NCBI GenBank assembly: GCA_024280885.1
Contig: JAJRPF010000003.1
Coordinates: forward strand, 27,876-91,875
From: Planctomycetota bacterium
GTDB taxonomy: Bacteria > Planctomycetota > JAJSAM01 > JAJVHW01
Length of the DNA: 64,000 nt
Direction: 5' to 3'
Each line of letters begins with the position of its first letter. The first letter of the stretch is position 1. The translations under genes and the position numbers were made by a program. Under the pieces are notes generated by a model that was not told where the DNA came from, did no database searches, and was given only the letters and a program-made list of their open reading frames with translations. Below, piece by piece: positions 3,237-6,780 of this stretch.

Positions 3237-4379
3237 TTGGCGAAGGCACGAACTCAGGGTCCACGTCGGGCAGCGTCAGGCGTCCTCTTGTGCGCGTTAC
3301 TGATCGTCAGTGCGTGTGGCGAAGATCCGGATCCGTCCACGCCTCCCGCGGCGGCGGTGGTCGTCGCGGAGAAGGCTGCTCCGGCCGTGACCGGCGCGCT
3401 GGCGGAGAGCCCCGCGGAGAGCCCCGCCGAGGCGCCACCGCAGACATCCGAGGATCGGCAATCGGTGCAATCGGTGCCGCCTTTCGCAACCGTGGACGAG
3501 ATCGCTGGGCGCGTGACGATGGTCCGCACGCTCGAGCAATCCGGAGAGCCCACGGAACTGAAGCCGGGGACCGAACTCCAGGCGCGTGACTTCATCCGCT
3601 TGCGGAGTGACGACGCTCTCGTGTCGCTGACGTTCGCGTCCGGCGCACGCTTGCACATGCGCGGCGTCGGCTCGTTCGGCACGCTTTTCCCTGACGCCGA
3701 ACTGACGCGAGTGTGGCTGGTCGACGGAACACTCGAGGCCGAGGATCCGGGGCGAACAGCGCTCGAGATAGGCACTCCGTACGACGCTGCCCTGACCCTC
3801 CTCGGAGCATCGGCACGAATGAAACTGGTCCCCGGTAAGACGCTCACCATCGAGCGCCGCGCTCCGGGACAGGCAACGGTGACGACCGAAGAGGCGAGTA
3901 TCGAACTCGGCGAAGAGCCGTGGCTCGGCTCGGCGAGGGATCACGCCCGCCTGCGCGAGTGCTCCGGAGACGTGGTCATCCGGCGAGGCGAGCTCACGAA
4001 GCCGGCCAAGACGGGCGACCGACTCGACCAGGGCGACCGCGTCGTAGTCGACGGAGACGATGCACGGGCGCGGGTCGAGTTTCCGGACGGGTGCCGGATG
4101 ACACTCGTCGGTCGAAGCGCGCTGCAACTTGTCCTAGCCGACGTCAACGGTCGCCGAGTTCACCTTCTCGGCGGAGTGCTTGAGCAGATCGCCGCGCGAG
4201 GCGTGGCCCTGGAGATCCAGACCCACGCCGCTTCGCTCGTGCTGCAGCGCGCGCGCGCCACCGCCGAAGTCCGCGCGGACGGCAGTGTGGAGTTCCGGAA
4301 GATCGACGGCCAGTACACGAAGGTGTGGGCGAACGGCAAACAAGGCAGCATCACGGACGGACGCTGGACCTCCGAGTGA
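3237..4379 (+). CDS. FecR-domain lipoprotein
   Basis: A TTG start at 3237 is preferred because a GAGGAGG SD sits a few bases upstream and the product then opens as a lipoprotein signal (basic KARTQGPRR, hydrophobic LLCALLIVSAC, lipobox Cys followed by GED). The mature 380-aa precursor has an Ala/Pro-rich linker and then two FecR-like domains. The first is around AGRVTMVR...LKPGTELQARDFIRLRSDD and the second around SGDVVIRRGE...TGDRLDQGDRVVVDG. FecR domains are periplasmic sensor or anti-sigma modules that often pair with ECF sigma factors. The next gene downstream encodes a membrane-fused ECF sigma factor, which supports a signalling partnership, but direct interaction is inference. The 59 upstream codons in the ORF track look like non-coding read-through. 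Confidence 0.8.
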   Translation: MAKARTQGPRRAASGVLLCALLIVSACGEDPDPSTPPAAAVVVAEKAAPAVTGALAESPAESPAEAPPQTSEDRQSVQSVPPFATVDEIAGRVTMVRTLEQSGEPTELKPGTELQARDFIRLRSDDALVSLTFASGARLHMRGVGSFGTLFPDAELTRVWLVDGTLEAEDPGRTALEIGTPYDAALTLLGASARMKLVPGKTLTIERRAPGQATVTTEEASIELGEEPWLGSARDHARLRECSGDVVIRRGELTKPAKTGDRLDQGDRVVVDGDDARARVEFPDGCRMTLVGRSALQLVLADVNGRRVHLLGGVLEQIAARGVALEIQTHAASLVLQRARATAEVRADGSVEFRKIDGQYTKVWANGKQGSITDGRWTSE

Positions 4380-4620
4380 GTCGCCTGCGGCTCGGCGGGT
4401 GCGCGGCATGCGGCGTAAACGCTACGCATCGAGCCAGACTCCGCGTGTAGCGCCGGAACTGCCCCCGGTGTCAGGGTCGTTGTCCGTTCCGCTCCACGAG
4501 CTCCGGCGTTCCGGGCGGCGGCTCGGATCCAATCCCCGATCCTCGGCCGAGCACGAACGACGACGCTCTTTGAACTCTGCTGCACCCCTCCCGCCGGGTC
4601 GTGGCATTCTGCTGAGTGAA

Positions 4621-6780
4621 GTGACTGCCAGCGACGTCCCCATCCACATCGACGAACTATTGGCCCACCGTCAGTGGGTCGCAGGCCTCGCCGTCGCACT
4701 GACCCGTGACCAATTCGAGGCCGACGATATCGTGCAGCAGACCTGGTTGGCAGCCCTGCGCCATCCGCCTCGCGGAGGCGGCTCAGCACGCGGCTGGCTC
4801 GGAACCGTCGTCCGCAACGCAGTCCGCGAACGCGGACGTGCAGGAAAGCGACGCACGCGGCGCGAAGCGGCGGTCGCCCGGCCTGACGCAATCACGTCGA
4901 ACGATCCCGCAGAACTGACCGCACGCGCCGAACTGCACGCCACCGTGTCGGCGGCGGTGGTCGCACTGGTAGAGCCCTACCGGCGCGCGATCCTGCTGCG
5001 GCATTTCGAGGGACTGCCGGTGGCCGAAGTGGCGCGTCGCATGGACGCTCCACTCGAGACGACACGCGCCCGGCTACGACGCGGTCGCGCGCAGCTCCGC
5101 GAGCGATTGGCGTGCAAACTCCGCGGTGAGCAGTCATTGGCTCTTCTGCTGCTACCCCTGACGAGAGACCATGCGGCTGCGGCGGCGATCCCCACGACGT
5201 CCGCTGTCGCCATCGGAGGTGCATTGATGACGACGAAGACGATGGCGGCGACAGTCGCGGCGGCGCTGTTCCTGCTCGCCCTCTGGTGGGGCAGCGATTC
5301 CGATGGGACGTCGCTACGAGGAACGAATGCGGGCGTCGCAGAGTCGGATGTCGCAACGGCCACGCCGTTGGTCGGCGTTGCGCCAACGAAGCGCGTTGAG
5401 AGACGGCATCATGTTGTGCTGGATCCGCCCCCTGAACCGGAGTCGGTCGCCGAGAGTCCCCCGGACACTCCGCCGGAGATCGTGCGCTACGTCGTCCGCG
5501 ACGTGTTCGACTCGACGCCGGTCTCCGGACTCTCGTTCGCGCTCTCGGCTGAACTCGACGCGCGGACGCGTGAGGCGGCAGGGATCACGGAGCAGACAGC
5601 CGAGGGAGCGTGGGTGCTGACCCCAACGCCGGATGGGAGTCTTCGTATTCCGGCGAGTTCCATCGACGGCGATCTGCACGCGATCGACACGGCGTGGCGT
5701 GTTGCGGAATGCGAACCGCTGGCGTCAGATGAGGAATCGACCCTCTGGGTCTACCGGATGGTTCAGGTCAGCGTGACCGTGCGGGCCGGGACGACGACCA
5801 CGTCTCCTCTGCGGCTGGAGCGCGTGGCGATCACCGCAACAGCACACGGTGCGAACTCGGTGTTCGCGCAGGAAGCCGGCGACGACGCACCCTTGAGCGA
5901 GATTTGGCTTCGTCGCCACGGGCTCTTCGACTTCGGGGTGAAGGGCCATGCGGATGCAGATGGTCGGTTATCGTTCGAGATCCCACGTGTCTCGACGATC
6001 ACCGTGCGCGCACGCGTCGATCCCCTGGGCATGGAGACAGCCAGCGGCTGGCGCGATGCCGCGCAGACGATATCGGATGAGGCGACGGCCGCGGGAAGTG
6101 CGCATCTGGAACTGACTCTTGAGCGCGGCTATGAGATCAGCGGTCGATTGGTGGACGACGAGGGACATCCCGTCGAGGGTGTTCGCGTATCGCTTCACGT
6201 CGTCCATTACATCGACATGGACGAGATCAGTCCTGCGAAGCTCGCGCTGGTTGGCCACAACTACACATTGAACTGGGACCCCTCCATGCCGAAGGCAATC
6301 GTAGACTACAAGGTCTATGGGCGGACGGATGCGGACGGGCGTTTCTCGCTCATCTCGCATACCGATGGCGAGCTGACAATCAGCTTTGTTCCGACGTCCG
6401 ATCAACACATCGAGAACGTCGCAATCGGACGCCTCTCCGGCTTTGATCGTGACGAGGACTTCACGCTGCGTTCGTCACGCGGAGAACCCGCCGTGAAACT
6501 CGTCGGCGCGCATGGCGCGTCGTTCGCCGGGCAGAGGGTCACTCTCACCGACACGTCCTACGGCGACATCCAGCCCAGTTTCTCGCACCGACTGGGCAGC
6601 GATGCAAAGCTGCCGTCGCGGTACTTGGTCAAGGGACACACGTATTGGTTCTTGGTCCACAGCAAGAGGGGGGCGCTTCCGCTAACCGACGCGGTGGTCA
6701 CGTGGAATGGGGAGACCGAACTTGAGATCAAACCGCTGCGCATGGGCGGCAACAGAGCGTCGGAGTCCGCCGACAAGTAA
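4621..6780 (+). CDS. ECF sigma factor fused to a membrane helix and a periplasmic carboxypeptidase-regulatory-like domain
   Basis: The product is 719 aa from a GTG start; about 147 upstream codons of the ORF track are shadow sequence over the FecR gene and the gap. Residues about 20-50 form sigma-70 region 2 (RDQFEADDIVQQTWLAAL), and residues 121-165 form region 4 with its helix-turn-helix (RRAILLRHFEGLPVAEVARR, TRARLRRGRAQLRERL). A hydrophobic helix follows at about 207-222 (AATVAAALFLLALWWG). The rest is a roughly 490-residue domain, presumably periplasmic, with a Pro/Glu linker and a carboxypeptidase-regulatory-like fold (EISGRLVDDEGHPVEGVRVSL at about 505, then YGRTDADGRFSL). ECF factors with long C-terminal extensions are known in Planctomycetes. 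A sigma domain tethered to a periplasmic sensor by one helix would combine sensing and transcription control. It sits 241 bp after a FecR lipoprotein gene. An internal SD plus ATG at 5227 could also yield the membrane part alone. Confidence 0.85.
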   Translation: MTASDVPIHIDELLAHRQWVAGLAVALTRDQFEADDIVQQTWLAALRHPPRGGGSARGWLGTVVRNAVRERGRAGKRRTRREAAVARPDAITSNDPAELTARAELHATVSAAVVALVEPYRRAILLRHFEGLPVAEVARRMDAPLETTRARLRRGRAQLRERLACKLRGEQSLALLLLPLTRDHAAAAAIPTTSAVAIGGALMTTKTMAATVAAALFLLALWWGSDSDGTSLRGTNAGVAESDVATATPLVGVAPTKRVERRHHVVLDPPPEPESVAESPPDTPPEIVRYVVRDVFDSTPVSGLSFALSAELDARTREAAGITEQTAEGAWVLTPTPDGSLRIPASSIDGDLHAIDTAWRVAECEPLASDEESTLWVYRMVQVSVTVRAGTTTTSPLRLERVAITATAHGANSVFAQEAGDDAPLSEIWLRRHGLFDFGVKGHADADGRLSFEIPRVSTITVRARVDPLGMETASGWRDAAQTISDEATAAGSAHLELTLERGYEISGRLVDDEGHPVEGVRVSLHVVHYIDMDEISPAKLALVGHNYTLNWDPSMPKAIVDYKVYGRTDADGRFSLISHTDGELTISFVPTSDQHIENVAIGRLSGFDRDEDFTLRSSRGEPAVKLVGAHGASFAGQRVTLTDTSYGDIQPSFSHRLGSDAKLPSRYLVKGHTYWFLVHSKRGALPLTDAVVTWNGETELEIKPLRMGGNRASESADK
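5215..5229 (+). promoter_or_regulatory. Internal Shine-Dalgarno and ATG inside the sigma fusion gene
   Basis: GGAGG at 5215-5219 lies seven bases before an in-frame ATG at 5227, exactly where the sigma domain ends and the membrane helix begins (GGALMTTKTMAATV). Initiation here would give a 518-aa membrane-anchored product without the sigma domain. The sequence shows the site; its use is inference. Confidence 0.45.

Follow-up and report, generated by a model that had tools for sequence, protein, structure and literature searches.

The gene at 4621-6780 of the window (the whole 64,000-nucleotide stretch of planctomycete DNA analysed here) is likely to encode an autoregulated, membrane-tethered ECF sigma receptor, from which sigma would be released by proteolysis, and to yield in addition a receptor that lacks sigma. 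An earlier sequence-only reading had described a sensor that carries its own sigma domain and needs a release step. Release remains the best reading of the locus, with a precedent in IutY (PMC8999054, PMC5411451), but because that account overlooked an internal start, the single fused product probably accounts for just half of the gene's output. The features of the locus, all on the plus strand, are:

3237..4379, +: FecR-domain lipoprotein, a neighbour judged to lie outside the system (start TTG 3237, Shine-Dalgarno ggaggagga, lipobox LLIVSAC)
4581..4607, +: ECF-type promoter-like site TGCACCC-N15-GGCAT, ending 13 nt (~14 bases) ahead of the GTG; predicted leader <10 nt
4621..6780, +: full-length product, ECF sigma, linker, single transmembrane (TM) helix and beta-sandwich extension (719 aa, GTG start, open frame)
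4663..4851, +: sigma region 2 (PF04542)
4954..5097, +: sigma region 4, helix-turn-helix (PF08281)
5137..5181, +: conserved post-sigma segment, predicted helix (alignment A1, AlphaFold)
5215..5219, +: internal Shine-Dalgarno GGAGG, 7 nt ahead of the internal ATG and complementary to the 16S tail CCTCC
5227..6780, +: predicted second product, a sigma-free signal-anchor receptor beginning MTTKTMAATVAAALFLLALWWGS (517 aa, internal in-frame ATG)
5239..5295, +: single transmembrane helix (hydropathy; helix in the AlphaFold model)
5356..6777, +: extension module (89% identical sigma-free copy at G000:C32:129657-131084)
5479..6738, +: ordered tandem beta-sandwiches, CarboxypepD_reg or pilin CNA-B-like (AlphaFold, Foldseek, Pfam)

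The fused sigma factor and its family

The coordinates and anatomy first assigned to this gene were correct. Both sigma regions that had been claimed exceed the curated Pfam cut-offs, region 2 at residues 15-77 (Sigma70_r2, E 6e-11, 42.4 bits) and region 4 at residues 112-159 (Sigma70_r4_2, E 2e-9, 37.4 bits); the product also matches TIGR02937 (55.9 bits) and, having regions 2 and 4 only, is an ECF sigma factor. Directly after region 4, nearly all fusions share the consensus GDRRAWxxALLPL (alignment columns 173-196, window 5137-5181). A linker of ~43 residues then leads to the one membrane helix of the earlier description, which we recovered as the only hydrophobic segment of the protein (~5239-5295, Kyte-Doolittle only) and as an AlphaFold helix at the same place; both the TM assignment and the orientation are based on hydropathy and a low-depth AlphaFold model.

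The remaining ~500 residues form the extension. CarboxypepD_reg is sub-threshold in the window sequence alone (Pfam, E 0.008); it is matched by all 14 proteins in the family to which the extension itself belongs (best E 1e-15) and by 33 of the 46 extensions of paralogous fusions in the same genome. The AlphaFold model of the extension, built from an alignment of 14 sequences, consists of tandem beta-sandwiches (pLDDT 81.5), and together with the family matches it bears out the carboxypeptidase-regulatory-like fold named by the sequence-only reading. Foldseek searches with the model returned Gram-positive pilin and adhesin modules, at the low TM-scores expected of multi-domain chains. The locus is adjoined on the minus strand (94-2271) by a gene for a Sortilin/BNR-repeat beta-propeller protein.

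The fusion belongs to a large family. The genome from which the window comes (G000; 6.3 Mb, 74 contigs) holds 84 matches to sigma region 2, and ~46 of these, selected by open frame, are sigma-TM-extension paralogs laid out as sigma, a linker of ~30-80 residues, one TM helix and an extension of 357-1246 residues. A survey of relatives for the same fusion, which had been suggested as a check, found the same domain order in >90 genes of related genomes; with this order in so many genes, the fusion is not due to chance. Split versions, in which sigma and the TM part are encoded by two consecutive genes, were absent among the family's few stand-alone sigmas, and a first scan of the genome contigs with the window protein alone as query gave no match. 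Genes of this architecture are also present elsewhere in the phylum, in other families and in two complete genomes (Planctomycetes bacteria Pla86 and Poly30), and they occur rarely in Myxococcota. Two myxococcal genes (L181 4578-8243 and L176 4968-6224), possibly transferred, carry the internal Shine-Dalgarno start described below as well. With 78 Pkinase (PF00069) matches besides its 84 region 2 matches in 6.3 Mb, the genome bears a very heavy signalling load. Few of the known sigma factors with attached membrane parts have been studied; this lineage has made the membrane-tethered design its main ECF type, with receptors that resemble pilin and adhesin modules.

Relatives of the extension also exist without sigma. 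The near-copy at G000:C32:129657-131084 (L075 1498-3042, minus strand) shares 89% protein and ~92% DNA identity with the window module, the homology beginning at window 5356, directly past the helix. The near-copy gene begins MKLSSHPVRRYVYGG-TM and has a Shine-Dalgarno sequence; its N-terminus and helix differ from those of the window protein, which is evidence for module exchange at the boundary between helix and extension. The closest relative of the extension in a genome of the same family (G004, 48%) is likewise sigma-free, as are most of the extension's distant homologs. In another sigma-free relative (31%; G000:C55:89441-90826, L092 and L238), a TGA interrupts the frame near the end. Since sigma-free homologs with a single TM helix exist, a sigma-free receptor is a natural form of this protein, and it is this form that a start at 5227 would produce.

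An internal start site selected at the DNA level

Just upstream of the helix, the linkers carry a recurrent motif, G-x-x-x-M-x-x-K, which reads in DNA as GGAG, 7-8 bases and ATG; the corresponding anti-Shine-Dalgarno CCTCC is present in the 16S tail. This internal start site is found in 80 of 139 family members and is absent in the other 59, and so is not essential to the design. We compared its frequency with that in linkers recoded with their amino acids unchanged and with family codon usage (500 runs). The site occurs in 24 of 46 fusions in this genome, from which the hypothesis was drawn, against 7.6 ± 2.3 after recoding (maximum 14). In two replicate sets, with identical sigma cores removed, it occurs in 29 of 48 genes of related genomes (recoded, 8.1 ± 2.4) and in 24 of 45 named public loci (recoded, 4.8 ± 2.0); the paralogs in these counts are related and not fully independent. 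The observed count was reached in 0 of 500 runs.

These results bear on the reading that the gene makes the fused protein only and that a motif at the protein level, located at the membrane boundary, accounts for the GGAG-ATG signature. A peptide motif, G[AGV]x[AVL]M..K, does recur in the alignment of the fusions, and the members without the site evidently work. However, the signal was lost on amino-acid-preserving recoding in all three gene sets, on which ground we rejected the peptide motif as its cause. Codon choice tells the same way: the glycine of GxxxM is encoded by GGA in 54 of 63 cases (GGG 7, GGT 2, GGC 0), although GGA makes up 16% of glycine codons overall (p 2e-33) and GGC is the commonest. 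In 75 of 80 genes, moreover, the mRNA around the internal start (48-base window) is less folded than after recoding, an effect that is not seen 60 codons downstream. We therefore regard the protein-motif reading as improbable. The position of the site at the membrane boundary would also suit a ribosome-pausing signal that aids helix insertion, but pausing would require neither a start codon nor an unfolded site, and an in-frame GGAG is followed by a start codon at initiation spacing in 53 of 116 cases in linkers (40 ATG, 13 GTG) versus 28 of 374 in extensions (4 ATG, 24 GTG). In addition, kinases of the same genome with a cytoplasmic domain followed by a TM helix do not carry the site (0/15, only 15 being usable). 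A pausing signal thus seems highly improbable, and the same small control led us to reject a general effect of Shine-Dalgarno sequences ahead of TM helices.

GGAG stands 5-11 nt upstream of 63 of 150 ATGs in linkers, 34 of 859 in extensions and 6 of 215 in sigma domains, and in the first gene set 40 cases have a GGAG-to-ATG spacing of 8. The positive charge flanking the site differs as well: genes that have the internal start favor lysine, with its A-rich codons (K97:R17), and genes that lack it favor arginine (K27:R72). Taken together, the recoding test, the GGA bias, the spacing, the open mRNA, the lysine flank, the kinase control and the CCTCC of the 16S tail are best explained by an active internal start. 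The gene has an in-frame Shine-Dalgarno sequence and start codon that are selected beyond the amino-acid sequence, and probably makes both the tethered sigma receptor and the predicted sigma-free receptor. From the second start we predict, for dozens of genes per genome, a protein that standard annotation overlooks.

Promoter, FecR neighbour and proposed mechanism

Only 18 of 134 genes have a Shine-Dalgarno sequence at the start of sigma itself, and in the window the predicted leader of <10 bases leaves no room for one. Many sigma starts are preceded by an ECF-type promoter, with a -35 of TGAACC or TGCACC, ~15-16 bases and a GGCAT- or GGGAT-like -10. In a quick tree, the window sigma clusters with L024, L025, L046 and the G004 gene L076 (SH-aLRT 95), and the TGCACCC version precedes each of these five genes. 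A scan of the 6.3-Mb genome for TGCACCC-N14-15-GGSAT gave 7 matches, against 1 in the backward control; 4 of the 7 precede the window sigma and its three closest paralogs. The pattern was derived from these very genes, so that finding it there is not independent evidence, whereas its scarcity in the rest of the genome is informative. The three further matches have no convincing target gene. Both boxes are kept while the spacer drifts in ortholog-like pairs such as L025/L076 and L028/L102; the footprint is preserved in L076. The shared promoter and the conserved boxes point to autoregulation, which is probable for the window sigma.

The sequence-only reading had also noted a FecR lipoprotein gene just upstream and suggested FecR as the input partner. 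The gene is there, with its TTG start, Shine-Dalgarno sequence, lipobox and a stop at 4379, and it lies next to the fusion on the same strand, as a classical FecR-type signalling pair would. The partnership did not hold up. The window FecR is a lipoprotein and has no anti-sigma part in the cytoplasm, the genome has 5 FecR genes against ~46 fusions, and the promoter-like site of the sigma gene, 200 bases downstream of the FecR gene, is separate from it. The proposed check for adjacent FecR genes found FecR at 1 of ~139 fusion loci, with no relative of the window protein at any other locus fetched. The conserved adjacent FecR with a cytoplasmic anti-sigma part that marks a FecI-FecR pair is thus missing here. 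Given so few FecR genes and no related one at other fusion loci, we rejected FecR as a conserved partner and treat it as a neighbour; we give a signalling pair hardly any credence. A different reading keeps sigma active at the membrane, by a membrane-bound holoenzyme or a conformational switch, with no proteolysis and with the short form a structural surface protein only. It fits the resemblance of the extensions to pilin and adhesin modules, and we found no protease site; however, the closest studied sigma-TM hybrid requires cleavage by Prc and RseP (PMC5411451), and we consider activity at the membrane rather unlikely.

We favor a tethered sigma that is released by proteolysis. The ECF-type promoter would yield a nearly leaderless mRNA whose translation from GTG 4621 would give sigma, the TM helix and a periplasmic or surface array of beta-sandwiches. 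Sigma would be kept at the membrane until the extension meets a ligand or is perturbed, whereupon regulated proteolysis, by analogy with IutY, would free it; the freed sigma would then transcribe its own gene, as promoter sharing suggests. From the internal Shine-Dalgarno and ATG 5227 would come the same receptor without sigma. Since both forms would have a common ligand and fold, the sigma-free form could compete with its sigma-bearing counterpart, dilute it or space it out, and we infer that the result may be negative feedback. Site-2 protease genes are present in the genome, including an RseP homolog (G000:C8:143683-145425), and are, to our knowledge, near universal in bacteria.

More tentatively, there may be a class of planctomycete sigma-receptor genes in which two translation modes on each mRNA, a near-leaderless start for the sigma-bearing receptor and a Shine-Dalgarno start for the sigma-free one, set how much transducer is made relative to inert receptor, a generalization that we hold possible without yet expecting it. 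If true, ratio control and autoregulation would together make a self-limiting surface sensor, present in dozens of copies per genome. In one-component signalling, the second start offers a concrete and inexpensive way to test whether the receptor-to-transducer ratio is controlled.

Relation to known systems

Sigma-TM hybrids are already known. In the literature searched, which was mostly open-access, we found neither CarboxypepD_reg receptors on sigma in such number nor a selected internal start, and the architecture may already be listed in the main ECF classification paper. The closest comparison is IutY of Pseudomonas putida, an ECF243 sigma/anti-sigma hybrid activated by Prc and RseP (PMC5411451, PMC8999054). 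Like IutY, whose sigma must be released, the window gene joins an N-terminal ECF sigma, a single TM helix and a periplasmic domain in one frame. The periplasmic part of IutY is an anti-sigma domain that answers a TonB-dependent receptor, whereas that of the window protein is a CarboxypepD_reg-like beta-sandwich array and not a FecR-type anti-sigma domain. The window family also differs in its ~46 paralogs per genome, its predicted self-promoter and its internal start, a feature on which the IutY paper gave no match (PMC5411451).

ECF48, ECF52 and ECF53 (e.g. SCO4117) similarly have fused C-terminal TM extensions, for which proteolytic activation has been proposed (PMC8999054, PMC5826349). Their anti-sigma domain is a zinc finger and they have 1-2 TM helices, whereas the window protein has a single TM helix and its extension has no Pfam match to such a domain. 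ECF57, the planctomycete ECFs with WD40 extensions (PMC8999054, PMC8567305), shares with the window family the phylum, large C-terminal extensions and many young paralogs; its extension consists of WD40 repeats, in contrast to one TM helix and an extracytoplasmic beta-sandwich extension here. For the internal start, the parallel lies in phage endolysins, in which an in-frame internal ribosome-binding site gives full-length and C-terminal products that in one endolysin assemble together (PMC9430671). Two in-frame products are predicted for the window gene as well; endolysins are not regulators, whereas here the shorter predicted product would lack the sigma output domain and be membrane-anchored.
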